The position numbers were made by a program, and so were the translations under genes. Shown in pieces: positions 10,857 through 24,092 of a DNA stretch of 27,290 bases (the first letter of the stretch is position 1; the number at the start of each line of letters is the position of its first letter). The notes beneath the pieces are model-generated. The model saw nothing but the letters and a program-made list of their open reading frames with translations, was not told the DNA's origin and searched no databases. The stretch is from a virus: positions 1-27,290 of the IMG/VR virus record IMGVR_UViG_3300049184_000070, one strand, 5' to 3'.

Positions 10857-12064
10857 TGGCCTTGTACAACTGGGGCGACACGACCATCGGCCGTATCCCG
10901 CTGCGGGAGACGTTCGCTGCGGCCGAGTCCGGCGGCGAGACACGGTCTCTGGACCTGGAGGGGCAGGAGTCGTATCCGCCGCTGACCCGCGCGCAGGTGG
11001 TGGCACGGCACGACGGCATCAACGCGCTCACGCCTGGCCAGTGCATCCCGGTCACGTTCACCGACAAGCCGGAGCGTTCGGGCTACTACACGGTGAAGTC
11101 CGCTGCGAGCACGTACACGGAGCATGTGGGTGACCGTGTCACCGCGGACTGGAAGGTCAGCTTGGAGCGGATCGGCTCCGACTCCGAAACCGACCTCCAG
11201 TCCCGCCTGACGGGCGCCGTACGCCTGAATGACTTTGCGTTGACCGGGGAGCGCTGGCACGCCCCGCCGATCGGGCACTACGCCTACTACACCGGCAGCA
11301 GCAACCCCACGACCATGACCCGCACCGGCGCGGACGGCGCGATGACCGTCTACCGGAGCGTGCCCGCGAACGTCTCCCCACGCTGGGGTTGCGCACCCAC
11401 GGACTATCTCGACGGGCGTGTGAAGGTCACCACCACCTCGGCGCAGGAGGTCTATGGCGTCGACGTGCCCCTCGCCGCCACCGGGTGGGCGCTGTCGAAC
11501 GGCCTCGTCAACATCACGCCCGGCGCTTCGGGAACGCTGGACGTGCAGGCCTACACGGGGAGCGCCTGGCACTCCAAAGAATGGAACGTGTCCGTCGCCG
11601 GGTCCGGCTCGTCGATCACGTCGTGGGACGGGGCGACCCTGCTCCGCAACGACCCCGAGATGTGCATCATGCGGCTGGTCAAGGGCCTGTCGCCGGGCCG
11701 GGCCAGCCTCGACCTCACCCTGCGCCGCGGGTCCCGCTTCGTCGAGGGCTACCTCCAGACCGGCACCAGCGCCACGCTAGCCGCCTACCGCAGCACGCTG
11801 GAGACCAACACCAGCTTCGCTGCGTCCGGGTACGTCACCGCCACCGGAGACGATGCCGACGGCAACAGGTTCGCCGTCGGCTCCGCCCGCACCTTCACCG
11901 CCCACACCAACGGCGGCGTCATCAAGTCCAGCGCCACGAGCCTCGACTTCTGGATCGGCGTCGAAGCCGGCGGCGGCTCAGCCGTGTCCGGGGATGCGGC
12001 CACAGACCTACGCAGCCAGTACGTCGCGTGCTTGCCGGAAGCCGTCTACGGCGTGAGGAGGTAG
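10856..12064 (+). CDS. Distal tail / minor tail protein
   Basis: A 402-residue protein directly after the tape measure, its ATG overlapping the tape measure TGA. The first about 120 residues (LYNWGDTTIGRIPL, then SLDLEGQESYPPLTRAQVVARHDGI and a FTDKPERSGYYTV strand) look like the N-terminal belt domain of distal tail (Dit-like) proteins: a short strand system followed by a turn naming the field-specific ligand of the tube. The remaining part (about 125-390) is Gly/Ser/Thr-rich and strand-dense, as in galectin-like carbohydrate-binding or jelly-roll inserts; this domain call is tentative. Dit hexamers form the hub between tube and baseplate. No enzymatic motif seen. Confidence 0.78.
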   Translation: MALYNWGDTTIGRIPLRETFAAAESGGETRSLDLEGQESYPPLTRAQVVARHDGINALTPGQCIPVTFTDKPERSGYYTVKSAASTYTEHVGDRVTADWKVSLERIGSDSETDLQSRLTGAVRLNDFALTGERWHAPPIGHYAYYTGSSNPTTMTRTGADGAMTVYRSVPANVSPRWGCAPTDYLDGRVKVTTTSAQEVYGVDVPLAATGWALSNGLVNITPGASGTLDVQAYTGSAWHSKEWNVSVAGSGSSITSWDGATLLRNDPEMCIMRLVKGLSPGRASLDLTLRRGSRFVEGYLQTGTSATLAAYRSTLETNTSFAASGYVTATGDDADGNRFAVGSARTFTAHTNGGVIKSSATSLDFWIGVEAGGGSAVSGDAATDLRSQYVACLPEAVYGVRR

Positions 12065-12066
12065 AC

Positions 12067-14955
12067 GTGGCCGTTCAGGAGGTGTTCAAAGCCCTCGGCT
12101 CGTGGGAGGTCAAACTCCTCGGGTCGGTGCCCCGTAACGTCCTCGATGCCATCGACTACTTTGGGCACGTCGCGATCATCCCCGGACGGCTGGACCCCGT
12201 CCAGTACGGCGACAACCTCCTCGACGTGGCCCGCTACGTCGGCGTCGTCCGCACGAAGACGATCGGTGACGACGGCCGCACCAACGCTCCAGCCGACGAC
12301 ATCTCAGTGGGTGGCGTGGGGATGGCGTTCTGGCTCGGCGACGAGGACGGCAAAGGCGACGTCTACGAGAACGCCATCGAAGCCGCCAGCGCAAGCTTCG
12401 CGGACACGATCAACATGCTCCTCCCCGCGTCCGGAGCCGTCACCGCAGGCACCATCCACTCCGTGGCCGGCACGTACACCGGACGGCACCAGTACGAGAC
12501 ACCCCGCACCGCCATCGGCTACGTGTGCGACACCATGTCCTCCGAGAGCGTGCCCGTCTCCTGGCGCGTCAACGGCGACGGCACGTTGGATGCCGGCCCC
12601 GACTCTGACCTGTTCGTCACCAACCCAACCTGCGTCATCCTCACCAAGGGCGCCGGCGAGGACATGGCGTTGCGGGCGCTGCCCGGCAGCATGGACGTCA
12701 CGCGGGATATGGAGGACTACTCCACCCGTGTTGTCCTCCTCGCCGAGGGTGAGGGCGACAGCATCGCTACCGGCGCTGCGGACATTGCCCCGGCCACCGG
12801 GTATAGGGACATTCACGGCAACCCGCTGAAGCTGACGCGGCTCGTCAGTGAGTCGGATACGTCGACGACGAACGCCGAGATCCGCGCTGCTCTTCAACTC
12901 AGCCGGTTCACGTCGACGCGGAACGCGCTCACCCTGTCCACCGCCGACTACGACGTCCACGGCAGCTTCAGGGTCGGCGACCGGGTGTGGGTGTACGACC
13001 CGGACGCCGGGCTCGTCGACACCAGCACAGAGATCGTGTTCCGGGGTCTGCGCCTGAACCCAATCAAACTCCAGGTCACCGAAACATCGTGGGCCATCAC
13101 CGACGGGTACACAGTCGCCTACCGGTCCGCCGACGGCACCTGGACGGACCTCACCGACCACGTCGACTTCGAGACCGATGGGACCAGCACGGTGACCGTC
13201 GGGGACTTCTCCCGGCAGCTCACCAACACCAGCACCGAACCCGTCGGCAGCCGACCCAACGCCGACACGTCCGTCCCCGGCATCCCCACCTTCGTGGAAC
13301 CCTTCGAAGGCACCGCCTACCTGGATGCCCGCGGCTTCACCCGCGCCCGCGTCATCCTCACCTGGAACGCCCCCAACAACATCGACGGCAGCACAGTGCT
13401 GGACGGCGACCACTACGAGATCCGGTACGCCGTCGACACCGACATGATCTACCCCGCCACCTGGACGCAGGTCTCCCAAGTCCGGTGGATGGACATGCAG
13501 ACGTGGGCGCAGCCGTTCGCCGCACCCGACGGGCAGTGGCAGGTCATGTACGTCGCCTGGGGCGAGACCACCGCCCAACTCCAAGACCTATCGCCCGGTG
13601 TCGGATACGACGTACAGATCCGCGCCGTCGACAAGACCGGCAACACCGGCACCTGGTCCGGGACGACGACGTTCGTTGCGTCGTCGGACAACCTGCCGCC
13701 GTCCACACCGGCCGCACCGTCGGTGGCCGCGTCTCGGATCGCAGTGCAGGTCACGCACGAACTGGGCAAGTCGTCCGGGGGCACGTTCAATCTGGAGTCG
13801 GATCTCCACCACTTGGAGATCCACGTCGACTACGAGCCTGGGTTCACCCCGTCGGAGTCGACGTTGAAGGCGAAGGTCAGTGCGACGGCGGGGATGATCC
13901 AGGCGCAGATCCCCGTGGTCGCCACCGTGCAGGTGGAGGAGACCTCGGCGCGCTATGTGCGCGTCATTGCCGTTGATCAGACCGGCAACAAGTCCGGCCC
14001 GTCCGACGCCGCCAGCGCGACCGCGCTCCTCATCGACGACGCCCACATCAGCGACCTCACCGTCACCAAGGTCACAGCCGGGGAGATCAGCGCGGACTGG
14101 ATCGTCGGCGCCCGCATCAAAACCGCCGACACCGGCACCCGCGTGGAGCTCTCCCAAGCAGGCATCGAGGCCTACAACAGCGACGGCACCCGCACCCTCT
14201 TCGCGGACGCCTCCACCGGCGACGTCAGCCTCATCGGACAGCTCTCATCCGGCGTCAGCGGCCGGCGTCTCGTCGTCAACCCCACGGGTGTCTCACAACC
14301 GCAGATCCGTCTTTACCCGACGTCCGGGTCCAACTACGCGCTCATCTCCTCTTACGACAACTCCAACACCCCCGCATCGGCGGCTGGCCTGCTGATGAGG
14401 ACCACAGCCGACGCCAACGACGTGTTCTCGCTGGTCGCGATGGACGAGCAGACTGCCACGTTCGGCCGCTGGGAGTTCGAGGCGAGCGAGGACCAGTTCT
14501 TCGCGAAGGGCGGCTACTCGAAGGCGGAGGATGCCCAGATCCGCACCGCCTGGTTCTCCGGGTTCGGGGGGGATTTCGGCGGGTCGTTCCTGGCGCAGCA
14601 GAACCGGGCGGAAGTCGGCTGGTTCGGGGCGACGACCGCGAACTGGAACTACATGCATTTCGACAACGACGGCATCACCCGCCATTACGGGATCTTCGCC
14701 CCGCAGTGTCTGACGGCCGGGTTCGCGACCATCACCCCCGTCGCGAACACGCCCACATCCGTCACCCTGACCGGGTTCGGGCCGCTCACGGGCAACAACT
14801 TCTACGGCTTCGTCACCGCACAGACCACGGTCATCGGGTCCGCAGTACACGGCGTCGCGCACACCAACGTGACCGCGTCCAGCATCACCGTGTGGGTGTA
14901 CCGGACGAACACCACGAACACCAACCTCGACTGGATGATCATTGGGAGGCCGTGA
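12067..14955 (+). CDS. Tail-associated (Tal-like) baseplate protein with fibronectin type III and fibre domains
   Basis: A 962-residue protein starting at GTG 12067, five bases after GAGGAGG; upstream in-frame sequence belongs to another reading. Residues 1-400 resemble the Tal/gp37-like hub domain of actinophage baseplates (WEVKLLGSVP, then the region GVVRTKTIGDDGRT, and a late VGDRVWVYDPDAGL strand pair). Residues about 410-535 form a fibronectin type III module (RVILTWNAP, HYEIRYAVD, YDVQIRAVDKTGNTG) and a second such module follows (540-650, ending YVRVIAVDQTGNKSG). Residues about 655-735 match the central-fibre segment IxDLTVxKVTAGEISA followed by RVELSQAGIEAYNSDG and ASTGDVSLIGQL. The C-terminal 200 residues are strand-rich, probably a trimeric receptor or shaft region. 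It likely forms the tail tip and contacts the host. Confidence 0.85.
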   Translation: MAVQEVFKALGSWEVKLLGSVPRNVLDAIDYFGHVAIIPGRLDPVQYGDNLLDVARYVGVVRTKTIGDDGRTNAPADDISVGGVGMAFWLGDEDGKGDVYENAIEAASASFADTINMLLPASGAVTAGTIHSVAGTYTGRHQYETPRTAIGYVCDTMSSESVPVSWRVNGDGTLDAGPDSDLFVTNPTCVILTKGAGEDMALRALPGSMDVTRDMEDYSTRVVLLAEGEGDSIATGAADIAPATGYRDIHGNPLKLTRLVSESDTSTTNAEIRAALQLSRFTSTRNALTLSTADYDVHGSFRVGDRVWVYDPDAGLVDTSTEIVFRGLRLNPIKLQVTETSWAITDGYTVAYRSADGTWTDLTDHVDFETDGTSTVTVGDFSRQLTNTSTEPVGSRPNADTSVPGIPTFVEPFEGTAYLDARGFTRARVILTWNAPNNIDGSTVLDGDHYEIRYAVDTDMIYPATWTQVSQVRWMDMQTWAQPFAAPDGQWQVMYVAWGETTAQLQDLSPGVGYDVQIRAVDKTGNTGTWSGTTTFVASSDNLPPSTPAAPSVAASRIAVQVTHELGKSSGGTFNLESDLHHLEIHVDYEPGFTPSESTLKAKVSATAGMIQAQIPVVATVQVEETSARYVRVIAVDQTGNKSGPSDAASATALLIDDAHISDLTVTKVTAGEISADWIVGARIKTADTGTRVELSQAGIEAYNSDGTRTLFADASTGDVSLIGQLSSGVSGRRLVVNPTGVSQPQIRLYPTSGSNYALISSYDNSNTPASAAGLLMRTTADANDVFSLVAMDEQTATFGRWEFEASEDQFFAKGGYSKAEDAQIRTAWFSGFGGDFGGSFLAQQNRAEVGWFGATTANWNYMHFDNDGITRHYGIFAPQCLTAGFATITPVANTPTSVTLTGFGPLTGNNFYGFVTAQTTVIGSAVHGVAHTNVTASSITVWVYRTNTTNTNLDWMIIGRP

Positions 14956-15182: not shown

Positions 15183-16218
15183 TACCCCCACTACTCGCCT
15201 GGGGATGTACAAGTCACTGTCCGACGGCTCCGAGTTGGTCAGCTACACCACCGACATCGGCCAGAACCTCGACAAGATCGACGCGGCAGTCGGCTTCCAA
15301 GTCGTCACCTCCGGCACCCGACCCAGCAGCCCCTACAGCGGCAAGGGCATCGCCGAATCCGACACCTCATACCGCACCTACTTCTCCAACGGCACCAGCC
15401 CAGCGTCCGCATCCTGGGTGCAAATCCCCAACAGCAGCAGCACGTTCAACGCCGACCTCGACCTCACCAGCGGCAAACAACTCAACATCGGCACCAGCAG
15501 CAGCACCGCCGCCGTCGCCATCGTCATGTCCAGCACCAGCGACGACCTACTGTCCGGCCGCGTCACCGGAGACACCGCATCCCGCTTCCTCATCGAAGCC
15601 GACGGCGCCCACTACTGGGGACCCGGCGGAGCCTCCGCAACCGACGTGACCCTCACCCGCACCGGCTCAGGCGTACTCACCCTCACCGGAGGCCTCACCA
15701 CCTCCGGCAACCTGGCCACCTCCGGCACCCTCACCGCGACCGGCGCCCTGTCCGCCTCAAACTTCCCAGCCGGCGCGTGGTCGACGTACAGCCCGACGTG
15801 GACCACGTCGAGCGGGTCGAACACCCCCAGCTACGGCAACGCGACGATCACCGCCTCGTACACGAAGATCGGACGCACGGTCATCGTCAAGTTCGACATC
15901 GTGTTCGGCACCACCACCAACTTCGGTGGCGGCGGCACCGGCGACAACTGGCGATTCTCGCTGCCCGTGACCGCGGCGGCGACCACGGTCTGCGCGGGCT
16001 TCGCGGAGATCAACGACAACTCCTCGCTCGGCGCAGTCGCCGTCTGTCGCATCAACTTCCCCACCACGAGCACGTTCCAGCTGAACACCTCATCCGGGCG
16101 GGCGGACGCGGTAGCGATGTCTTCACCGAACTGGGGCATCGTCGACGCGGTCACCCCGTGGACGTGGGCAACGAGCGACGCGGTCCGCGGCAGCTTCAGC
16201 TACGAGGCGGCGTCTTGA
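15175..16218 (+). CDS. Tail fibre / minor tail protein 1
   Basis: A 347-residue protein starting at GTG 15175. Residues 1-45 (TPTTRLGMYKSLSDGSELV, then TDIGQNLDKIDAAVG) match the N-terminal attachment segment typical of actinophage fibres. A Ser/Thr/Asn-rich shaft follows (55-200) with short repeats TSGNLATSGTLTATGALSA around residues 180-198. The C-terminal about 145 residues begin with GAWSTYSPTWTTSSGS and contain SYTKIGRTVIVKFDIVF, a widely shared beta-sandwich tip seen in many phage fibres. Codon style changes sharply near base 15775 from C-ending to G-ending choices, which marks the shaft-tip border and suggests a swapped tip. Its 3' end overlaps the end of a convergent - strand gene by 23 bases. 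Confidence 0.8.
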   Translation: MPDTPTTRLGMYKSLSDGSELVSYTTDIGQNLDKIDAAVGFQVVTSGTRPSSPYSGKGIAESDTSYRTYFSNGTSPASASWVQIPNSSSTFNADLDLTSGKQLNIGTSSSTAAVAIVMSSTSDDLLSGRVTGDTASRFLIEADGAHYWGPGGASATDVTLTRTGSGVLTLTGGLTTSGNLATSGTLTATGALSASNFPAGAWSTYSPTWTTSSGSNTPSYGNATITASYTKIGRTVIVKFDIVFGTTTNFGGGGTGDNWRFSLPVTAAATTVCAGFAEINDNSSLGAVAVCRINFPTTSTFQLNTSSGRADAVAMSSPNWGIVDAVTPWTWATSDAVRGSFSYEAAS

Positions 16219-16477
16219 CTGCGGCACGGCCGGGGGCGTCCTTGGCCTCTGCTGGTCCGGGCTGGTCCGGGCCGGCGGGTGCGGCGGCGGCCTGCTTCAG
16301 GCGTTCGTTCTCCGCCTGTGCGGTGGCGAGCTGCTTTTCCAGCACGTCGACCTTCGCGCGGAGGATGAGCGTCTCGTCCTGGAGGTCGCTGACGCGTTTC
16401 CGGTAGACGGGGAACACGTCCTCGACGCTGACCTGCGTGCCCGGCTGCTGCGGCTGCTGGGGAGGGGTCTGGTTCAT
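16196..16477 (-). CDS. Small coiled-coil protein (93 aa)
   Basis: The last gene of the - strand operon. After a Gln/Pro-rich N-terminus (residues 2-13) comes VFPVYRKRVSDLQDETLILRAKVDVLEKQLATAQAENERL in spirit: a continuous heptad pattern over about residues 20-62 that should form a coiled coil, then a Pro/Ala/Gly-rich tail with a duplicated GPDQPGP-type sequence. No membrane segment or signal peptide. Its ATG overlaps the stop of the upstream glycosyltransferase (ATGA at 16474-16477), and its end runs 23 bases into the convergent fibre gene. It may act as an oligomerising partner of the enzymes upstream, or be an assembly factor; no family recognised. Confidence 0.72.
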   Translation of the reverse strand: MNQTPPQQPQQPGTQVSVEDVFPVYRKRVSDLQDETLILRAKVDVLEKQLATAQAENERLKQAAAAPAGPDQPGPAEAKDAPGRAAVKTPPRS

Positions 16478-17343
16478 GCGGTGACCGCCTTGTCTGCGAG
16501 GTCCCGGTACCTGTCGAGTAGGTTGCTGCCGTTGAGGAAGGCGTGCTGAGGGAAGAAGCTCCAGTGGCTGACCACGGCGTTCCCTCGGAGGATGTTCGGG
16601 GCGCCGGTGGCGAGCGGGTGGTGGATGGTGTGGAAACTCTCCTCCTCGTCGGGGACGAGGACTCCTGGCCCGTGTGGCAGGTTGGCGTACATGCTGCCGA
16701 GGCTGGCGAAGCAGCTGACGGAGAACTGGGTGCCGGGCTGGATGGGGAAGTCCTGGTAGAGGTAGAGGTCTTCGACGGTGCCAGCTTCGATGTGGTCGAG
16801 GAGGAGTTCGTGGAGCTTGACGGCGAAGGGGCCGTTGGCCCAGCCGTTCGGGTCCATGCAGTACTGCTTGACCTCTCCCCACTCCATCGGCACCTTGCCG
16901 CAGAGCTGGAGGAAGTGCGACACGACCGCGTTGTTGAAGATGATCGGGAACACGGCCGTGGGCGCGGGCATCTCCAGCCGGGCGCGTACGAGGTTCTCCA
17001 CGGCGTCCTCGTGCAGGTACACCACATCGTCATCGAGTCTCACGTACACGGCCTCGGGATCGGTCATCTCTCGGTAGGCGAGCCCTGTCCACCTCTGCTT
17101 GGGCAGGTTGCCGAGGTCGATGCCTTCGGGCCGGTGCTTGAGGTGGAACCAGTCGAACTGCTCGTTGAGTTCGTGGGCGTAGGCGATGTCGTCTTCCTGG
17201 CCTACGGGGTCGGTGTTGAGGTAGGCCCAGACTTCGTCGACGAGGCCGCGTTCGACGTCCCGCTGGAGGTACTTGATGAGGATGCTGTAGGTCCGGACCC
17301 TGCCGTAGGGGGTCCACGCAATCACCTTGTGGCCGTCGATCAC
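16474..17343 (-). CDS. Glycosyltransferase-like protein with DDD motif
   Basis: A 289-residue protein, start GTG 17343 with GAAGGAG seven bases upstream. It looks like a GT-A type glycosyltransferase: the N-terminal strand KVIAWTPYGRV is followed by helices, and the motif VRLDDDVVYL places Asp104-106 where the nucleotide-sugar/metal DxD signature lies. A helix and strand pair follow (TAVFPIIFNNAVVSHFL), then an acidic segment (DFPIQPGTQFSVSCF) and a His-rich region (ESFHTIHHPL) that could include the catalytic base and metal ligand. It does not carry the classical GT2 N-terminal pattern, so the family is uncertain. Cytoplasmic; no membrane helix. It belongs to the sugar cassette together with two other transferases and two epimerase-like genes. 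Confidence 0.75.
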   Translation of the reverse strand: MIDGHKVIAWTPYGRVRTYSILIKYLQRDVERGLVDEVWAYLNTDPVGQEDDIAYAHELNEQFDWFHLKHRPEGIDLGNLPKQRWTGLAYREMTDPEAVYVRLDDDVVYLHEDAVENLVRARLEMPAPTAVFPIIFNNAVVSHFLQLCGKVPMEWGEVKQYCMDPNGWANGPFAVKLHELLLDHIEAGTVEDLYLYQDFPIQPGTQFSVSCFASLGSMYANLPHGPGVLVPDEEESFHTIHHPLATGAPNILRGNAVVSHWSFFPQHAFLNGSNLLDRYRDLADKAVTA

Positions 17344-17972
17344 GAGTTGTCTCCTTCGTCAGACAGTTCTTGGGCGGGGGTTTCGCTGGCGCTCGCGCGG
17401 CGGCCGCCGGTCGGTACCGACTGGAGGTCTCGGGTGCGGGCGAGGTTGGCGTCGGTGATCCCGAACGGCCGGAACAGGCCACACGCTGCGCAGCGGCCGT
17501 AGATCCCGCTATCGAGGACGGGCATCGTGCACACGCAGGTGGAGTGCGCCCTCTTGATCGCCGAGCAGTCGGAATGGAACAGGCCACGCTCGCCCTGCCA
17601 CCAGCGGGCGCGCGGACCGTCCCACGAGTGGGAGAAGTTGACCGAGTCGCCTTTGATGCTGCGCCCGCCACACCAGGCGCAGCGCGTAAGCAAGCGGCGT
17701 CGCAGATGTTGGAGCGGGTGGATCTGAAGGCGCCAGTGATGAACGTGGAGTCGCCAGCGTTTCCCACGGCACGTCTTGTCGTCGAAACCGGACGGGTCGC
17801 GGTGCCACACCGTGATCAGGCTGGGCCAGAACAGGCCCCGTCCGGCGACGACCCAGAAGGCACCGCCGATCTTCCAGCGGGTGCCGGTCCGGGCGGCTTG
17901 TTCGGTCTTCCAGTCGTCGATGCGAGGCCACGGGCGGGGGATCTCGAACGCGCCGGTGAGCGGGTCATGCAT
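17340..17972 (-). CDS. Cys-rich putative zinc-binding protein (210 aa)
   Basis: I recognise the general type as a recurring Streptomyces/actinophage hypothetical, without known role. The start is ATG 17972, which overlaps the upstream stop by 8 bases. Residues 1-90 are basic and Trp-rich with several aromatic strands. Then come Cys98-x2-Cys101 (RCAWCGG), an SVNFSHSWDGP segment, a GLFHSDC unit (His133, Cys136), Cys146/Cys148 (TCVC) and Cys161-x2-Cys164 (RCAACG), which together could bind two zinc ions. The tail is Ser/Glu-rich. The cluster is not an HNH nuclease by motif, since the metal-binding His-Asn-His triad is absent. DNA, RNA or protein binding is possible. Being inside the sugar operon, it may not be functionally tied to it. 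Confidence 0.7.
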   Translation of the reverse strand: MHDPLTGAFEIPRPWPRIDDWKTEQAARTGTRWKIGGAFWVVAGRGLFWPSLITVWHRDPSGFDDKTCRGKRWRLHVHHWRLQIHPLQHLRRRLLTRCAWCGGRSIKGDSVNFSHSWDGPRARWWQGERGLFHSDCSAIKRAHSTCVCTMPVLDSGIYGRCAACGLFRPFGITDANLARTRDLQSVPTGGRRASASETPAQELSDEGDNS

Positions 17973-18735
17973 GGTGGGCCTCCGTGCGGCGGGTGGTGCG
18001 GTGCCTGGGGGGCCAGACGTGCGCGTCGTCCGGCCACGGCAGGTCAGGATGTAGCTTCCGCAGCAACTCCACGGTCGCGGCGTGATACCGCCCGCGGGTG
18101 TCCGACAGCTGGTCGGGGTGGACGCGCACGAAGTACAGCGGCGTCTCCACCACCGCATACCGAGTCAGCCCCGCCTTCCAGACGCGGATCCAGAAGTCCC
18201 AGTCCTCTGCCGTCCCGAACGTCCCCGGCACCGTCGCCTTCGGCGAGTAGCCGCCCACCTGCTCCCACGTCTCCCGCCGGAACAAGCCCTTGTCGATCAG
18301 CGGCGGCCAACGCACTAGGTCGTCCAGGCCGGCGTCGGGGAGGGAGGCTTGGATGTGGTCGGCTTCGCCGAACTGTTCGGCGTGCGGGATGACGAAGTCC
18401 CGGCAGCCGTCGGCGTTGAGGGCTGATAGGCAGCGGGCGACGCATTCCGGGTGCAGCTTGTCGTCGGCGGACGCGGTGAAGATGGCGTCGCAGCCGTCGC
18501 CGAGGGCGAGGCGTGCGGCGGCGTTGAGGCTGCCTGCCCAGCCGAGGCGCTTCCGGTTGCGGCGCATCCCAGTCCACAGGTGGGGGTGGTCGCGGAGCCA
18601 TTCGTGGGTGCCGTCGTCGCTGCGGTCTTCGGCGAGGTAGGCGTGCGCGGTGTGGGTTTGGGCGGCGATGGATTCGAGCATTTCGCCGAGCCACGGCCGG
18701 GCGTTGCGGGTGGGGATGATGACGCCGACTTTCAC
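17965..18735 (-). CDS. Family 2 glycosyltransferase (GT-A fold)
   Basis: A 256-residue protein with classical GT2 features. The start MKVGVIIPTRNARPWL is the N-terminal nucleotide-binding strand and helix; EDRSDDGT (residues 36-43) is the usual second motif; TASADDKLHPE (87-97, Asp91/Asp92) is the DxD-type metal site. A late GTAEDWDFWIRVW segment carries the ED-W signature of the acceptor side/catalytic base region. The usual role is transfer of a sugar from a nucleotide donor to a protein, lipid or polysaccharide acceptor. No membrane helices, so it is cytosolic or peripheral. The GTG start overlaps the stop of the upstream epimerase by 4 bases, so the two are translated together; that enzyme may supply or modify the donor. 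Family size is normal; acceptor unknown. Confidence 0.88.
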   Translation of the reverse strand: MKVGVIIPTRNARPWLGEMLESIAAQTHTAHAYLAEDRSDDGTHEWLRDHPHLWTGMRRNRKRLGWAGSLNAAARLALGDGCDAIFTASADDKLHPECVARCLSALNADGCRDFVIPHAEQFGEADHIQASLPDAGLDDLVRWPPLIDKGLFRRETWEQVGGYSPKATVPGTFGTAEDWDFWIRVWKAGLTRYAVVETPLYFVRVHPDQLSDTRGRYHAATVELLRKLHPDLPWPDDAHVWPPRHRTTRRTEAHHA

Positions 18736-19601
18736 CGCTGCTCTCCGATCCAGTTGAGCGTCTTGCGGATGCCGTCGAACCAGTGGGTGGTGGGCTTCCA
18801 GCCGCGTACGGCGGTGATGGCGGCGTTGTCGGTGACGACGCGCTGGAGGTCGCCGGGGAGGCGCTCGTCGTGGGTGACGCGATGCCGGGTGCCGGTTTCG
18901 ATTTCGAGGGCGTTCACGAGTTGCAGGAGTTGGAGCTCGTTCTCCGGTCCGCCGCCGACGTCGTAGGGCTCGGTCGCGGTTGAGTAGTCGGCGTGGTGTT
19001 CGACTATGTCGACAAGGAGACTCGTGAAGTCGTCGATGTAGAGGATGTCCCGGCTCTGGCTGCCGTCGCCGTGGATGGTGATGGGCTGGCGGTCGCAGAA
19101 GGCGCGGAGGAACCAGGTGACCCAGCCCGCCTCGCTCGTCCCGCGCTGGCCCGGCCCGTAGACGGTGGACGGGCGGAGGACGACGCTTGGCAGGCCGTAC
19201 AGCTCGCGGTAGAGGCGGAGATAGTCCTCGCCGACGGCTTTGGACAGGCCAAGGGGGGCGGTGAGTCCGTCGGCTCCGGGGTGGACCTTCACGGAGGACG
19301 TGAAGACGACGGGGACGTTACCCGCGAGCCGTGCGGCTTCGGCGACGTTGAAGGTGCCGATCACGTTGTCCGTGAAGTCGCGGGCCGGGTCTTCGAGGCT
19401 GACGCTGGTGGAGCAGGACGCGCCGAGGTGAACGATGACGTCCGGCCTGGTCTCCCTGATGATCGCGATCAGGTAGCCGAGGATCGTGGTCGTGGTCCCG
19501 TGTCGTTTGTCCATGCGGGTGACGGTGTGGCCGCGTGCTTCGAGTGCCTGGACGAGGTGGCTGCCGATGAACCCGGCCGCCCCGGTGACGAGGATGTTCA
19601 C
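18732..19601 (-). CDS. NAD-dependent epimerase/dehydratase-like protein lacking the catalytic tyrosine
   Basis: A 289-residue extended short-chain dehydrogenase. The N-terminal Rossmann signature TGAAGFIGS (residues 6-14) binds NAD(P), with a typical second strand (TVTRMDKRHG) whose Asp31 would favour NAD. The catalytic region should read P-Y-x-x-S-K but here reads PLGLSKAVGE: Lys121 is kept while the Tyr position (117) is Leu, codon CTT at 19251-19253 on the - strand. The FTSSVKV segment supplies the Ser/Thr. LRPSTVYGPGQ and an ILYIDDF segment follow as usual. Without the Tyr, normal oxidation/reduction is doubtful, so the protein may be a non-catalytic partner, use another residue, or have changed specificity. 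GTG start overlaps the preceding stop by 4 bases. Confidence 0.85.
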   Translation of the reverse strand: MNILVTGAAGFIGSHLVQALEARGHTVTRMDKRHGTTTTILGYLIAIIRETRPDVIVHLGASCSTSVSLEDPARDFTDNVIGTFNVAEAARLAGNVPVVFTSSVKVHPGADGLTAPLGLSKAVGEDYLRLYRELYGLPSVVLRPSTVYGPGQRGTSEAGWVTWFLRAFCDRQPITIHGDGSQSRDILYIDDFTSLLVDIVEHHADYSTATEPYDVGGGPENELQLLQLVNALEIETGTRHRVTHDERLPGDLQRVVTDNAAITAVRGWKPTTHWFDGIRKTLNWIGEQR

Positions 19602-19795
19602 AGGCTCACCGCGTTCTGCCAGGAGGCGTACTCGGGAAGGTGGGCCTGCGCGAATGCGGCGACGAGGGCGGCAGCGAAGTGGGCCTGCGCCTGAGTGGCG
19701 AGGGCCTGTGCTTCGTCGGGCTTGAAGGCGGTGCTCGTGGCTTCGGATTCGGTGAGGAGCCGCTCACCCTCGCGGTAATGCTCCGGGCCCGTCAC
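19598..19795 (-). CDS. Small GPEHYRE-type actinophage protein (65 aa)
   Basis: A 65-residue mainly helical protein. The N-terminus TGPEHYREGERLL followed by an Ala-rich helix (QAHFAAALVAAFA) is a pattern I know as a small recurrent protein of Streptomyces and their phages; its function is unknown. Two GTG starts are possible: 19804 and 19795. The second is chosen because GAGGAG lies 8 bases before it and because it overlaps the upstream stop as GTGA, like the neighbours. The alanine-rich helix is amphipathic rather than a membrane segment. Confidence 0.75.
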   Translation of the reverse strand: MTGPEHYREGERLLTESEATSTAFKPDEAQALATQAQAHFAAALVAAFAQAHLPEYASWQNAVSL

Positions 19796-20217
19796 GGCTT
19801 CCACTCCTCGCGGTAGTCCGGGTGGTCGGCGTACGGGAGCGCGAGGAGCGACAGGAGATCGTCGCTGGCTTCCCGGACCGGATCAGTGCCGACGCCCCAC
19901 TCTCCTGCGATGCGGAGTTCATCGGCCTGCATGGTCGGAAGGACATCGTCCAGGATCCGCCGCTTGGCCTCGACCTCGACAAGGACGCGCGCCGGGTCGT
20001 GGCGAATGATGTGGTCCCGCTCTCGCGGCCACGCGTACTTCACCCGAGGCTGGCGGTTCGTGTCCCAGACCCCAACGTCACTGTTAGGGCTGGGAATCCA
20101 GCGCGGTGCGGGATGCCCATCCCGGATGGCTGCCATGACGTTGGATCCGAGCACCAGCTGCACCGCTTCGAAGTCCTCGTCCAGCCGCGCCCGCAGGAAC
20201 CCCACCAGATCGCTCAC
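19792..20217 (-). CDS. DUF6221-like protein
   Basis: A 141-residue protein. It resembles the actinobacterial DUF6221 family by its opening FLRARLDEDFEA helix, the central HDPARVLVEVEAKRRIL helix and the closing LLALPYADHPDYREEW, all three typical of that family as I know it (assignment from memory of the motifs, not a search). The region between (residues about 30-70) is variable and contains several Trp/Pro residues. No enzymatic motif; function unknown, common as an orphan in Streptomyces mobile elements and phages. It starts with GTG at 20217, overlapping the upstream glycosyltransferase stop (GTGA), and its stop overlaps the next start the same way. Confidence 0.82.
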   Translation of the reverse strand: MSDLVGFLRARLDEDFEAVQLVLGSNVMAAIRDGHPAPRWIPSPNSDVGVWDTNRQPRVKYAWPRERDHIIRHDPARVLVEVEAKRRILDDVLPTMQADELRIAGEWGVGTDPVREASDDLLSLLALPYADHPDYREEWKP

Positions 20218-21224
20218 ACCGTCACCGCCTCGGGTACGCGGACGACGTCCTCCCAGCGGTGATGCAACGCCTGCATGATCGACCCCGACGCCTCACCCCG
20301 CGCCGCCATACCAATCCGCTGACGCAAGGCCGGGTCATCCGTGAGCTGCTTCAAATAGCGGCCCCACTCATGCTCATACCGGACCAGGAACCCGTTCTCC
20401 CCGTGCCGGATCACCCGCCGGTACGCCTCCGTATCCGACGCAATCAGCGGGATCCCCAGGACCGACGACTCCAGCCACTTCGTCGGGAACTTCGCCTGGT
20501 TGAACGGGGTGTCCCTGTACGGCGCCACCCACACGTCCCACTCCGAGACCCGCTTGAGGTACTCGTCAACCGAGGGCACCCAGCCCAATGCGCCGATACC
20601 GCGCCCGCGCAGTCCGAGGCGTATCGCACGCTCGGCGGAGATCCCCACGATCCGCACCTGCACCCCACCCGGCCGCGGGTACCGCGAGATCCGATTCAGC
20701 GCCCGCACCGCCTCCGGCAACTCCGCCACCGTCGACGATGTACCAGCCCAACCCACCGACAACGGCCGGTCCACTGCCGCGTAGTCCCGCTCCCAGCCCA
20801 ACAACTGCGCTGGCAGGCCATTCGGAATCACGCGGACGTTCGGCGCGTAGTCCCGAAGCACCTTCGCGAGCGGCTCGGTCACACAGGTGACGAGGTCCGC
20901 GACCGACATGTTGTGGGCCAGCCGGCCGAGCATGGCCGGAGTCCAGTCGCGGGCAGCCGGATTGGTCGGATCGATGTGGAAGTAATCGTCGTCCAGGTCG
21001 AGCACGAGGCGCTTGCCTCGGTCCTTCAGGTGCTGCCACATGTCCGAGGCGTCCGCAATGGCGACGCGGCATCCGACGATCGTGTCTACTGACGGCCAGT
21101 CGTGGGGTAGGCGTGTTCCGCAGGACACGGCGTGCCCCAGCCACGACAGGCCCATTGCGGGGAGCACCGCCCGGTAGTGTCCCGACCCTGCCATGTCGGC
21201 GGACCAGAAGTGGACGCGCGCCAC
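20214..21224 (-). CDS. GT4-like (GT-B fold) glycosyltransferase
   Basis: A 336-residue protein starting at GTG 21224. The N-terminal half shows VHFWSADMAGSGHYRAVLPA (donor-side Gly loop), LVLDLDDDYFHID, and VRVIPNGLP, the linker strand common in GT4 enzymes. The C-terminal half has SVGWAGTSSTVAELPEAV, KFPTKWLESSVLGIPLIAS, where a GT4 pattern E-x7-E is approximated, and TEAYRRVIRHGENGFLV. These point to a GT-B nucleotide-sugar transferase of the family 4 kind. The upstream gene ends one base before the start, so translation is coupled. A larger start region would extend upstream through unrelated frame, so the GTG is preferred. The acceptor is unknown; together with the other two transferases it could build a short glycan in steps. 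Confidence 0.82.
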   Translation of the reverse strand: MARVHFWSADMAGSGHYRAVLPAMGLSWLGHAVSCGTRLPHDWPSVDTIVGCRVAIADASDMWQHLKDRGKRLVLDLDDDYFHIDPTNPAARDWTPAMLGRLAHNMSVADLVTCVTEPLAKVLRDYAPNVRVIPNGLPAQLLGWERDYAAVDRPLSVGWAGTSSTVAELPEAVRALNRISRYPRPGGVQVRIVGISAERAIRLGLRGRGIGALGWVPSVDEYLKRVSEWDVWVAPYRDTPFNQAKFPTKWLESSVLGIPLIASDTEAYRRVIRHGENGFLVRYEHEWGRYLKQLTDDPALRQRIGMAARGEASGSIMQALHHRWEDVVRVPEAVTV

Positions 21225-21225
21225 G

Positions 21226-21609
21226 TCAGCCCGCCTTGGGCTGACTGGTGTGAACGGGCTGCCCGCTGTCGCTGGTCTTCGGTTCCTCGTCGACGAGGGT
21301 GTACGTCTTGCCGCCATCCTTCGACATGGCACGCGAGTCGCGGACGTTCTGCCAGATGGGGTAGCCGCTCATCTCTGAGCGGTCCTCCCACTCAGCAGGG
21401 TCGTCGGTGATCGCGGTCAGCGGCTGATAGCGGAGCAGCCTCTCCAGGTACGCAGCGCATTGGATGGCGGACGAGCCGGAGTGCCCCATCCCAGCAAAAG
21501 CAGCAACGACCTTGCACAAGCCCTCGGTGATCCACGGGTCCTCGCCGAGAAGCGTGAGTTCGCGGCGGGCGTGTGCGACGAGCGGGCTGTCAGTGGCGGT
21601 GCGGCCCAT
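21226..21609 (-). CDS. Small conserved actinophage protein (127 aa)
   Basis: A 127-residue protein starting at ATG 21609 with AAGGAGG 6 bases upstream, the strongest ribosome binding site in the operon. Its layout (SPLVAHARRELTLLGEDP, a helix FAGMGHSGSSA, then LTAITDDPAEW, WQNVRDSRAMSKDGGKTY) corresponds to a small family I have seen in Streptomyces and Mycobacterium phages, without assigned role. The DGGKTY unit is usually near the end, but this copy has an added acidic/Ser tail (about 20 residues). Conserved His, Asp and Trp residues might mean a binding site. It sits between an epimerase and a glycosyltransferase with gaps of 17 and 1 bases. Confidence 0.75.
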   Translation of the reverse strand: MGRTATDSPLVAHARRELTLLGEDPWITEGLCKVVAAFAGMGHSGSSAIQCAAYLERLLRYQPLTAITDDPAEWEDRSEMSGYPIWQNVRDSRAMSKDGGKTYTLVDEEPKTSDSGQPVHTSQPKAG

Positions 21610-21626
21610 AGCCGCCTCCTTCAGTG

Positions 21627-22580
21627 TCAGGCGGTCAGGTAGCCGGGGAGCCATTCGGTGGCGTAGTAGTCGACGGTCCGCCGGATGCCCTCCCCGAGCG
21701 GCACGAAGTCCGCAGCCGTCATCCCGATCTGCGCCAGCGTCGACGTGTCCGAGGTGACGACGGCGTTGGGGACTTCGCCGGGCCGCATCGGCAGGTGCTT
21801 GATCCCGACCGGTTCGCGGGCGGTGATCTCGGCGGCATACTCGGCAACGAGACGGGCGATGTCGTTGACCGTGACCGAGGACAGCGGGCCGACCTCCACC
21901 GGCTTCTCCGTAGGTCCTTGCTGCGCGGTGTGCTCCAGTGCGGTCACGAACGCGCGGGCGACGTCCTCGACGTACACGCAGTCGCTGATCTGCGTGCCGT
22001 CGCCGTACACCTCGATCGGCGCGCCAGTCAGCGCGCGGCACACGAACGAGGGTGCGATCTTGCGGACCTTCGATGTTCCGTAGGGCTTGGCGATCGACTG
22101 GCCGGGGCCGTACGCGTTGACCGGACGGACGATCGTGATCCGGCCGCCCTCGCGGTACAGGTTGTACATGCGGGCCAGGTCTTCGGCCGCCGACTTGGTG
22201 ATCGTGTAACAGCCCGTGCCGACAAGCCGGAAGGCGTGGTTGCCGACGCCTGCGTAGACGACCGGGAGATCGTATTGGGCGGCGGCTTCGAAGACGTTCA
22301 GGCTGCCGATGATGTTCGTTTCGGCGGACGGGCGCGGGTTGGTGATCGTCTCCTGCGTGCCGAGGACTGCGGCGAGGTGGATGATCCCGTCGGTGTGCGC
22401 GGCGGCTTCGGTGACGGCGGTGTCGTCGCGGACGTCGCCGAGGAACATCTCCTCGTTGGGTGCGAGGAGGTGGCGGCGGTCTTGGTGGTCCATGACGACG
22501 ACCTGGTGGCCGCGCGCGGTGAGTTCGCGCCTGATCCAGCTACCGATGAACCCTGCGCCACCTGTGACCAGCGTCTTCAT
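21627..22580 (-). CDS. NAD-dependent sugar epimerase/dehydratase
   Basis: A 317-residue extended short-chain dehydrogenase with an intact active site. The Rossmann signature TGGAGFIGS (residues 6-14), Asp31 in VVMDHQDR (NAD preference), the strand/loop FLGDVRDD, and the catalytic GCYTITKS (Tyr125 and Lys129) are all present. VRPVNAYGPGQ is the typical substrate-side segment, followed by YGDGTQISDCVYVEDVARAF, a family hallmark. It most probably epimerises or dehydrates a nucleotide-sugar that a transferase downstream consumes. The start ATG 22580 overlaps the preceding stop (ATGA) and has AAGGAGAG upstream. Both this and the other epimerase-like gene are of similar length, but only this one has the Tyr, so this is the likely active enzyme. 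Exact product unknown. Confidence 0.88.
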   Translation of the reverse strand: MKTLVTGGAGFIGSWIRRELTARGHQVVVMDHQDRRHLLAPNEEMFLGDVRDDTAVTEAAAHTDGIIHLAAVLGTQETITNPRPSAETNIIGSLNVFEAAAQYDLPVVYAGVGNHAFRLVGTGCYTITKSAAEDLARMYNLYREGGRITIVRPVNAYGPGQSIAKPYGTSKVRKIAPSFVCRALTGAPIEVYGDGTQISDCVYVEDVARAFVTALEHTAQQGPTEKPVEVGPLSSVTVNDIARLVAEYAAEITAREPVGIKHLPMRPGEVPNAVVTSDTSTLAQIGMTAADFVPLGEGIRRTVDYYATEWLPGYLTA

Positions 22581-22723
22581 GCGTTGCTCTCCTTGTTCTT
22601 GCTCCGGCCGCAGTGTGGGCAGGTTTGGTGTTTGGCGAGTGCGGTGTCGCGGGTGGCGGTGACGATGACGCAGCCGAGGATGAAGGCGGCGATGATCGCG
22701 GTGATGGCGATGGCAGTGTTCAC
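22577..22723 (-). CDS. Tiny membrane protein with Cys-x2-Cys tail (48 aa)
   Basis: A 48-residue gene. Start GTG 22723 (overlapping the upstream stop as GTGA) and stop at 22577-22579, overlapping the epimerase ATG. Residues 3-22 are a hydrophobic transmembrane helix of Ala/Ile/Leu; residues 34-40 read TCPHCGR, a Cys-x2-Cys pair; the tail is Lys/Asn-rich. Upstream is GAGGAGCAGCC, the ribosome binding sequence shared with two other genes in the operon. Membrane anchoring plus a zinc-knuckle half suggests a small inner-membrane factor, for example a partner of the glycosyltransferases. No family recognised. It is real by overlap, start signal and composition, despite the size. Confidence 0.75.
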   Translation of the reverse strand: MNTAIAITAIIAAFILGCVIVTATRDTALAKHQTCPHCGRSKNKESNA

Positions 22724-23550
22724 GGCTGCTCCTCGGTGAGGTCGCCGTCGGCGCCGATGACGAGGCGCCGGACGACGAGGGTGAGGTTGACCGTCACAAG
22801 GGACTCGCCGAGAGCGAAGTCTTCGATCTTTACGACGGTGCCCTTGGGGGTGTAGACGGAGACGCCGTTGATGCGGACCTCGCGGGGGACGACGATGCTT
22901 CCTCCGCCGTCCTCGGTGGGCTGGCTGTCGCTCGCGACGATTTCAACGACGGACGCGCGGGGCTTCATCGGCTGCTCCTTGTGCGGTGCGGGCTGCTGGC
23001 CGGGGCATGGGATGGCGTTGCCTTGCGGGTCGAGGTGCAGGACTCCACACCCGATGGCCGCCGCGAACTTGGTCGCCTCGTCCGGTTCGGCGTGGGGGCA
23101 TTGGACGGGCGTGCCCCACGGATCGGTGTGAACCTCGCCGCCGCACTCGGGGCGGGCGCATCCTCCACCCCCGCTAGAACCCTCGGGCGCGTCCGTGGAC
23201 TGGCCTGCTGCCACAACGGTGTGGGAGACGACACCCATGGCCTTGAGCTTGTCGAGGCTGTAGGTCGGCTCGGGTGCCTGGTGTGGTGTGGCGCCCTTGG
23301 CGCTGTCGTTCCATACGTAGCGCCCTGTCACTTCGCCATCTCCGCGCACGCTCGCATGCCAGCGCCCGTACTGGCCCCTGTCGTGCCCAACGCGGAAGGC
23401 GCACGTGTAGAAGTCGCCTTGTCCGGTTTCGAAGCGCGCGGTGCAGGGTGGCAGGTCAGCGTGTGTGCGTGCGACGTGGATGTCGAGTTGTCGGGATGGC
23501 GGTGAGGCATCGCAGTGCGGGCATTCCTCGCGTGCGTCGAAGTGGCTCAT
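22720..23550 (-). CDS. Cys/His-rich protein fused in frame to a small beta-rich protein (276 aa)
   Basis: One open frame from ATG 23550 to 22720. The N-terminal part (about 1-190) has CPHC with HVARTHAD (a C2H2-like finger, residues 9-29), a GDFYTCAFRVGHDRGQYGRWHAS strand pair, and a later CARPECGGEVH and QCPHAEPDE region, so several metal sites are likely. The C-terminal 82 residues (MKPRASVVEIVAS onward) form a beta-rich unit with VPREVRINGVSVYTP and VKIEDFAL, then VNLTLVVRRLVIG, resembling stand-alone small proteins of actinophages. The internal ATG at 22968 has a perfect AAGGAGCAGCCG in front. The two domains may be one protein, or a fusion made by loss of a stop; function unknown. Confidence 0.7.
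   Translation of the reverse strand: MSHFDAREECPHCDASPPSRQLDIHVARTHADLPPCTARFETGQGDFYTCAFRVGHDRGQYGRWHASVRGDGEVTGRYVWNDSAKGATPHQAPEPTYSLDKLKAMGVVSHTVVAAGQSTDAPEGSSGGGGCARPECGGEVHTDPWGTPVQCPHAEPDEATKFAAAIGCGVLHLDPQGNAIPCPGQQPAPHKEQPMKPRASVVEIVASDSQPTEDGGGSIVVPREVRINGVSVYTPKGTVVKIEDFALGESLVTVNLTLVVRRLVIGADGDLTEEQP
22966..22978 (-). promoter_or_regulatory. Internal ribosome binding site and start (GGAGCAGCCG ATG)
   Basis: Within the fused frame, GGAGCAGCCG at 22969-22978 is followed directly by ATG at 22966-22968. The same nine to ten bases precede the starts at 23550 and 22723. An independent 82-residue product (22720-22968) is therefore likely to be made in addition to, or instead of, the long protein. 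Confidence 0.6.
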
Positions 23551-23654
23551 CGGCTGCTCCCGATGACGAGGACGAAGTCGACGGCCATGACACCCGGCTG
23601 GGCAAGCACCACGAACGCGAACAGGAACGACACGGCGGCGCAGATGGCCCTCAT
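23547..23654 (-). CDS. Tiny hydrophobic protein (35 aa)
   Basis: A 35-residue gene. ATG 23654 overlaps the preceding stop (ATGA at 23651-23654), and its TGA at 23547-23549 overlaps the next ATG. Residues 3-18 (AICAAVSFLFAFVVLA) are strongly hydrophobic, and a second hydrophobic segment (VMAVDFVLVIG) follows after a QPG turn. It looks like a small hairpin membrane peptide or a single helix with signal-like character. The size is close to the lower limit, but the 4-base overlaps on both sides are just like those of its neighbours. Function unknown. Confidence 0.6.
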   Translation of the reverse strand: MRAICAAVSFLFAFVVLAQPGVMAVDFVLVIGSSR

Positions 23655-23926
23655 GAGCCGCCCCCATCTGCCTCAGCCACTTCGGCTCGATAGCGGGTCA
23701 GGGCGTAGTCGAGCAGGCCCATGACGCGGTGGTAGGGGACTTGCCCGCCGCCATCCGGCAGTGTGATCCCGACCTGCGTCAGGCCGTCTCCGTCGTCGTC
23801 GAAGCGCTGAGCGGCGAAGACGACTACCCACTCAGTCAGTACGCCTTGGGTGCCTTCGTTGCGCGCGACTTCTTCGATGGCCTGCGCGAGACGCTCGTAA
23901 GCGGCTCTCTGTTCGCGTTCGGTCAT
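23651..23926 (-). CDS. First gene of the - strand operon; small conserved actinophage protein (91 aa)
   Basis: A 91-residue protein starting at ATG 23926 with AGGAG 7 bases upstream, immediately preceded by the pseudoknot-like leader. N-terminal TEREQRAAYERLAQAIEEVARNEG is a charged helix, then LTEWVVVFAAQRF, a short acidic loop (DDDGDG) resembling a calcium-binding turn, GLTQVGITLPDGGGQVPYHRVMGLLDYALTRY and a polar end. I know this pattern as a small recurrent protein of Streptomyces and mycobacterial phages, without function. As the first gene of the transcript it is the one whose translation the leader would control. An upstream GTG (24004) would add 26 unusual Arg/His-rich residues and is rejected. 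Confidence 0.8.
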   Translation of the reverse strand: MTEREQRAAYERLAQAIEEVARNEGTQGVLTEWVVVFAAQRFDDDGDGLTQVGITLPDGGGQVPYHRVMGLLDYALTRYRAEVAEADGGGS

Positions 23927-23930
23927 GGCG

Positions 23931-24017
23931 CGGCTCCTGTGCGGGTGAGTGCGGGTAGTGGTGCGGGTTTTGCGGTGGCGGAGGAGCGACCCGCACAGAT
24001 GCACTCCTCCGCCACCG
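23931..24017 (-). promoter_or_regulatory. Candidate pseudoknot RNA leader of the - strand operon
   Basis: Read on the - strand, the transcript contains a perfect 14-bp stem (cggtggcggaggag/ctcctccgccaccg at 24017-24004 and 23986-23973) with a 17-base loop. The loop holds the octamer GTGCGGGT (23996-23989). Downstream lie three copies of its exact complement ACCCGCAC at 23968-23961, 23956-23949 and 23946-23939, the last directly touching the AGGAG (23938-23934) of the first gene. Loop-to-copy pairing would give a pseudoknot, and the three copies offer alternative partners. This is a plausible translational switch; whether it binds a protein, another RNA or only the ribosome is unknown. Confidence 0.6.
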
Positions 24018-24043
24018 GCCCCTCCGAAAGGGCCACGAGAACC

Positions 24044-24092
24044 ATCCTACGATTCATAGGAATTTGGCAAGCAAGCCCTATGATTCGAAGGA
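24044..24092. promoter_or_regulatory. Divergent promoter region with two operator-like direct repeats
   Basis: Two 16-base direct repeats, cctacgattcatagga (24046-24061) and cctatgattcgaagga (24077-24092), match at 13 of 16 positions and lie 31 bases apart, three helical turns. Each is a rough palindrome. The first overlaps TAGGAT, a -10-like hexamer on the - strand (plus bases 24044-24049), with TTGCTT 19 bases upstream of it. The second overlaps TATGAT, a -10-like hexamer on the + strand (24079-24084). One regulator bound at both could control both transcripts. The region is AT-rich compared with everything around. The -35 on the + side is not evident. Confidence 0.55.

Follow-up and report, generated by a model that had tools for sequence, protein, structure and literature searches.

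In IncI-alpha plasmids, initiation at repZ is governed by a pseudoknot that arises when a hairpin loop pairs just upstream of the Shine-Dalgarno (SD) sequence of this gene; that pseudoknot is an activator and is blocked by an antisense RNA, the loop has a single partner and the controlled gene is a plasmid replication gene, all of which are unlike the leader described here or its phage setting. That leader pseudoknots can control initiation is also clear from the leaders of T4 gene 32 and of ribosomal-protein genes. T4 gene 32 was considered in a 2010 review to be perhaps the only case of a viral pseudoknot in translational autoregulation (PMC3014915). It resembles the present leader in that a phage mRNA contains a pseudoknot ahead of the ribosome binding site and short repeats that separate it from the start; however, the T4 repeats (UUAAA) are unstructured protein-binding sites, whereas here the repeats are candidate pairing partners that reach the SD sequence, and the T4 pseudoknot has one fixed partner 67 nt upstream. 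A pseudoknot has likewise been described upstream of the start of mycobacterial rpsO (PMC10931766). In the rpsO/uS15 and alpha operon/uS4 leaders, as proposed below, the pseudoknot that controls translation is situated at the initiation region or immediately before it, but these systems employ a single partner and, as ligand, a host protein for which the recognition motif is conserved; they contain no spare tandem partners and do not belong to phages. The nearest known system in host and position is the SAS/ESAS of Cluster K mycobacteriophages, in which short words repeated at translation starts are accompanied by an upstream inverted repeat, again in actinobacterial phages and with a lineage-specific consensus (PMC3203893). 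SAS contains the SD sequence itself and occurs 11-19 times per genome, and RNA pairing of the ESAS arms has little support (PMC3203893). By contrast, the leader reported here almost always occurs once per genome, its arms covary and its loop word is complementary to the repeats; the 13-bp GGGATAGGAGCCC found at many starts per Cluster K genome is not its repeat, and both word and copy number differ. No Rfam family matched at gathering score, and no description of one loop with several exact partners was found in the literature searched, which includes few of the subscription journals.

The leader was found in a window of 27,290 nucleotides, the whole stretch of viral DNA analyzed (IMG/VR record IMGVR_UViG_3300049184_000070, positions 1 to 27,290), between a divergent tail-fibre gene (24116 onward) and a leftward operon whose first gene starts with the ATG at 23926 on the - strand. 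On this strand, a main hairpin (S1) of 16 contiguous pairs, including one U.G, is formed by a 5′ arm at 24017-24002 and a 3′ arm at 23988-23973. L1 (CAUCU, 23997-24001) joins the 5′ arm to the loop word GUGCGGGU (GTGCGGGT in DNA letters, 23996-23989), the 5′ strand of the putative second helix (S2), which is flush with the 3′ arm (L2 = 0). As expected for an H-type pseudoknot, this loop is complementary to sequence 3′ of the hairpin, namely to three exact copies of ACCCGCAC: copy 1 (23961-23968), 4 nt past S1; copy 2 (23949-23956); and copy 3 (23939-23946), which abuts the SD sequence AGGAG (23934-23938). An earlier note made from the same letters had placed the loop, the three exact copies and the contact of the last one with AGGAG exactly; the hairpin it described is present, but is slightly longer than the 14 pairs given there.

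The region upstream of S1 bears on whether the element is transcribed. A small hairpin, P1 (GGCCCUUUCGGAGGGGCC, 24017-24034, - strand), lies directly 5′ of S1, and comparable hairpins (e.g., GGTTCTGGCTCAGGAACC) occur in the Streptomyces-type (group I) leaders; P1 and S1 compete for position 24017, because the last base of P1 is part of the outermost S1 pair. The hexamer TAGGAT (24044-24049, - strand) is a putative -10 element of the form TAnnnT, and all 40 group I leaders contain such a hexamer ahead of their P1 hairpin. Transcription is thus predicted to start near 24037 and the whole of S1 should be contained in the transcript, and a start downstream of 23973, which the earlier note had taken as incompatible with its proposal, looks unlikely. 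Two near-palindromic sites are also present between the divergent genes (24046-24091) and are probably the operator of a phage regulator: an outer, operator-like half CCTTCGAATCATAGG (24077-24091), common to Streptomyces-type leaders, nearly all of which have it as CCTTnGAATCGTAG at about 18-30 bp on the upstream side of the second site, and an inner motif CCTATGAATCGTAGG (24046-24060), of which the group I form is CCTACGAATCACAGG.

The element stands out from its background. A scan was set to accept any 7-mer as loop word, provided that two or more complements followed downstream and that the stem reached 9 bp. The leader was the sole match in the whole window, and 60 shuffled windows yielded two matches, neither with an 8-mer; even a weaker form of the element arose in none of 5000 shuffles of the leader itself. 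The window leader folds more stably than dinucleotide shuffles (z = -3.2; 0/200 equally stable), and ACCCGCAC occurs nine times in the window against 2.45 expected, with four of the nine at the leader.

The distribution of the element was examined by a word query that demanded the loop word and two exact copies only, without regard to hairpin or start. Among the 55 stretches recovered from viral records, 37 combined an uninterrupted stem of 9 bp or more with an SD sequence and start after the last copy, and 10 more contained the start with an interrupted stem, giving about 47 leaders; among the 62 stretches from the genome collection, 52 had neither stem nor start and eight were genuine elements, in Streptomyces, Kitasatospora, Catenuloplanes and Speluncibacter. 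The leaders, most of which were gathered by this exact-word, two-exact-copy query, carry two to four copies in viruses of Streptomyces, Gordonia and related bacteria, and nearly all viral records contain a single element. Two relatives whose first protein is 76% identical to that of the window (L002 and L003) have retained the loop word together with two exact copies, and S1 is altered on both arms. In group I leaders the word is always GTGCGGGT, even at loci found without asking for it, and 59 exonuclease-homologue loci from Streptomyces-type phages contained no other two-copy word; this invariance could also mean a second, sequence-specific constraint. A blastn search of one leader against phage and plasmid records returned nothing useful, genome searches with the tail-chaperone and L048 proteins added nothing, and the scanned part of phage ZL12 (about 50 kb) contained no match.

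To avoid bias toward one word, leaders were also fetched by protein homology with the word ignored: the tail assembly chaperone gene behind two elements led to similar proteins in Gordonia phages, and a word-blind scan of these loci revealed the element with a different word. It was present in all 18 isolated Gordonia and Nocardia phages examined, before the gene between the major tail protein and the tail assembly chaperone, and it precedes tail genes in Gordonia phages such as Gustav, Trine, Hedwig, Bowser and Schnabeltier. The RNA words are GUGCGGUG, UGCGGGG, GUGCGGG, AGCGGUGGG and GUGCAGC in isolated phages and GCGCAGGUC in a Mycobacteriales genome, and every word has at least two exact downstream complements (2-3 copies). 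In DNA letters, word and complement are GTGCGGTG/CACCGCAC in Mahdia, Gustav, Morrissey and Nocardia phage NS-I (three copies in NS-I), TGCGGGG/CCCCGCA in Trine, GTGCGGG/CCCGCAC in Upyo, AGCGGTGGG/CCCACCGCT in Widow and Puppers, and GTGCAGC/GCTGCAC in Kiko, all nine relatives of which carry GTGCAGC with 2-3 copies. The Mycobacteriales genome, identified by an HMM match, has GCGCAGGTC/GACCTGCGC, with the second copy between AGGAGGA and ATG. A Speluncibacter prophage (L109) encodes a weakly homologous protein (27% identity), and its leader has the Streptomyces word, GTGCGGGT/ACCCGCAC. The independent word changes are few, because the Gordonia words fall into few lineages. The comparison of related phages proposed in the earlier note supports its pairing idea, since homologous leaders keep the complementarity while the word differs. 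The annotated starts of Mahdia 13 (L161), Morrissey 14 (L163), Hedwig 14 (L252) and Schnabeltier 13 (L258) precede the aligned start, falling in the leader or ahead of it, and are probably too far upstream. At about 12050-12120 (+) of L229, a possible single-copy relative has the loop CTTCCGGC and, between its 14-bp stem and an SD sequence with a start, a lone complement GCCGGAAG.

Covariation in the stem was counted per element, because MAFFT loses the stem register in the group I alignment, in which RNAalifold (24 leaders) recovers the loop-copy helix only. In 56 non-redundant elements the hairpin sequence is highly variable and its pairing is retained through compensatory changes in both arms: 93.9% of 12 pairs are formed, compared with 50.5% when the 3′ arms are reshuffled (maximum 57%; 0/2000 reach the observed pairing), part of this gap being by construction, as registers were picked per element for the longest stem. 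In an alignment of eight leaders, 91.7% of the S1 and S2 cells are paired with the first copy and 89.5% with the second, 12 pairs have changed on both sides, and the score of 0.438 (0.167 and 0.174 in shuffles) was equaled in 0/500 shuffles; when the pairing is slid by 1-3 columns it falls to 36-46%, the collapse being evident already at one column. These counts are conservative, because the alignment misplaces letters of Kiko and, in part, of Mahdia and Widow. Compensatory change is thus seen in both helices, and RNA-RNA pairing is supported because the pairing is conserved while the sequence is not.

The geometry of the 56 elements is also regular. S1 is 10-17 bp long in all except one, L1 is 1-7 nt, L2 is 0 in 41 and never exceeds 3, the last copy is reached by an L3 of at least 12 nt in every case, and the S2 duplex amounts to -11 to -17.5 kcal/mol. 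A short L1, an L2 near 0 and an L3 that spans S1, as in an H-type pseudoknot, are therefore found for the last copy, but about half of the first copies depart from this arrangement. The first copy lies only 2-5 nt past S1 in 27 of the 56 elements and, at about 6 Å per nucleotide against about 40 Å for S1, is estimated to be unable to reach the loop unless S1 frays; by the same reasoning, copy 1 of the window is probably too near to pair with the loop while S1 is complete. This arrangement does not explain why two or more copies are present. The last copy is 0-23 nt before the start, mostly 9-14 nt, and is located between the SD sequence and ATG in L041, L046, L048, L060, L109 and L235. In elements with two exact units after a clearly degenerate one (e.g., 10 dEE elements), the degenerate unit is the stem-proximal one, which we read as a sign that selection acts on the copies close to the ribosome binding site.

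The genes behind the leader vary. In the window, the first gene (23651-23926, - strand) encodes a 91-aa protein of the DUF7213 family (PF23850, above cut-off), of which the relatives in L002 and L003 have the same leader, and it is followed by genes for a 35-aa membrane peptide, nucleotide-sugar epimerases, glycosyltransferases and others (16196-23654, - strand). Since the operon genes are mostly joined via 4-nt stop/start overlaps, the first start may set much of the operon. Gene order across 16196-23926 is mosaic among related viruses. The membrane peptide (MRAICAAVSFLFAFVVLAQP..., 23547-23654), which is below the usual length cut-off for gene calls, is the first gene in many relatives (L011, L013, L023, L027, L039, L050 and L064). 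From phage to phage the first genes are unrelated (DUF7213, the membrane peptide, a DnaQ-like exonuclease, HTH, HNH-like and others), and several are homologous to genes deeper in the window operon; as judged from these gene orders, the leader of Streptomyces-type phages holds its place while genes shuffle. A tie between the leader and the function of the first gene was rejected on these grounds, and gene-specific autoregulation is unlikely for the same reason. DUF7213 homologues lie directly before the terminase gene in the Streptomyces phages PHTowN, Dryad, Yara, Wentworth, phiRKBJ001 and Gibson (L004-L009), and no such leader was present at these distant first-gene homologues (PHTowN, Dryad, Yara and others).

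The concerted evolution of loop and copies makes it very probable that the two pair and thereby control the reading of the gene or operon. We consider it probable that the leader acts in cis, as an RNA element heading a phage operon, and that its S1 loop word pairs with a tandem copy to form an H-type pseudoknot; translational control is the best inference for its action. In this model, the long GC-rich S1 would present a loop word of 7-9 nt to one of several tandem downstream copies, with which it would form S2. Pairing with the last copy would place an 8-bp helix against the SD sequence, or between it and AUG, and would hinder 30S binding or initiation; melting of S2, or a shift to an upstream copy after S1 fraying, would free the site. 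In group I, occlusion would be steric, since the last copy does not cover the SD sequence there. From the arrangement of the sequences we infer that the pseudoknot forms in vivo and acts on translation by hiding or exposing the ribosome binding site, that its ground state is closed and that it needs no conserved trans partner.

Several other explanations can be weighed against this reading. That the element is chance or low-complexity GC-rich sequence has a negligible probability: most of the 62 matches in the genome collection are indeed repeats or chance, but the viral matches mostly combine stem and start, leader shuffles never yield the element and homologues keep it with other words, so that conservation with concerted change refutes this explanation. 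The words might instead be bound by a phage regulator that recognizes specific DNA or RNA sequences, as the earlier note had allowed for DNA, with the loop copy as one more inverted site and the words following the lineage specificity of the regulator. The invariance of the Streptomyces-type word at loci found without it would fit such a regulator, as would the Cluster K start-site repeats, for which a lineage-specific consensus is known and DNA-binding proteins are favored by the authors (PMC3203893). However, a fixed protein site needs neither an inverted copy in a compensated loop nor concerted change, whereas here the inverted copy is always in the loop of a covarying hairpin, flush with or near the 3′ arm, exact complementarity is kept in six other words, and the words also differ in length (7-9 nt); moreover, an operator abutting a start would be odd in the middle of a tail operon. 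We therefore regard protein sites as quite improbable.

The pseudoknot may alternatively protect the mRNA, or block 5′-3′ decay or transcription readthrough, rather than control initiation. A role in stability would be independent of the variable first gene and would suit both the Streptomyces-type structure close to the predicted 5′ end and the Gordonia/Nocardia element inside the tail cluster, with the major tail protein gene on one side and the chaperone gene on the other; it is unlikely nonetheless, as it explains neither why the last copy is consistently close to the start codon nor why copies occur between the SD sequence and ATG. An ordinary intrinsic terminator was rejected, since S1 is not followed by a U-run (at most 3 T in 8 nt in 56 elements). 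Pairing between molecules, in which the loop of one transcript would engage the copies of another, or an antisense RNA, with tandem copies providing valency, could account for the stem-proximal copy, which is usually present even though often too close for intramolecular pairing, and for the lineage-specific words. Viral records almost always contain a single element, however, and the last copy is always reachable in cis, where pairing would be kinetically favored, which makes intermolecular pairing very improbable.

Returning to the cis-acting pseudoknot, a broader proposal can be made more tentatively, with doubt slightly outweighing belief: the leaders may constitute an undescribed class of phage riboregulator, present in several groups of actinobacterial phages and moved between unrelated operons, in which the loop chooses among two to four redundant partners, copy number and position set the expression of the whole operon, and the word is lineage-specific and re-codable. 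If so, this would be a multi-register pseudoknot switch with a freely re-codable pairing word. The leader is common in actinobacterial phages, and the known translational leader pseudoknots of phages are few. Since words differ between close relatives, the loop, the copies and the copy number should be exchangeable in simple reporters, which makes the mechanism directly testable, and the element could serve Streptomyces and mycobacterial hosts as a small, re-codable part for translational control.

Two other kinds of repeat were met in the searches. The genomes of Saccharothrix, Lentzea and Crossiella (L096, L099, L129 and L143) contain arrays of GCGGGTTTG-like repeats in both orientations, which are unrelated to the leader. 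In L043 and L047, TTTTG-ACCCGCAC-CG units are arrayed with inverted partners at sites that do not precede a start, and represent a different repeat family.
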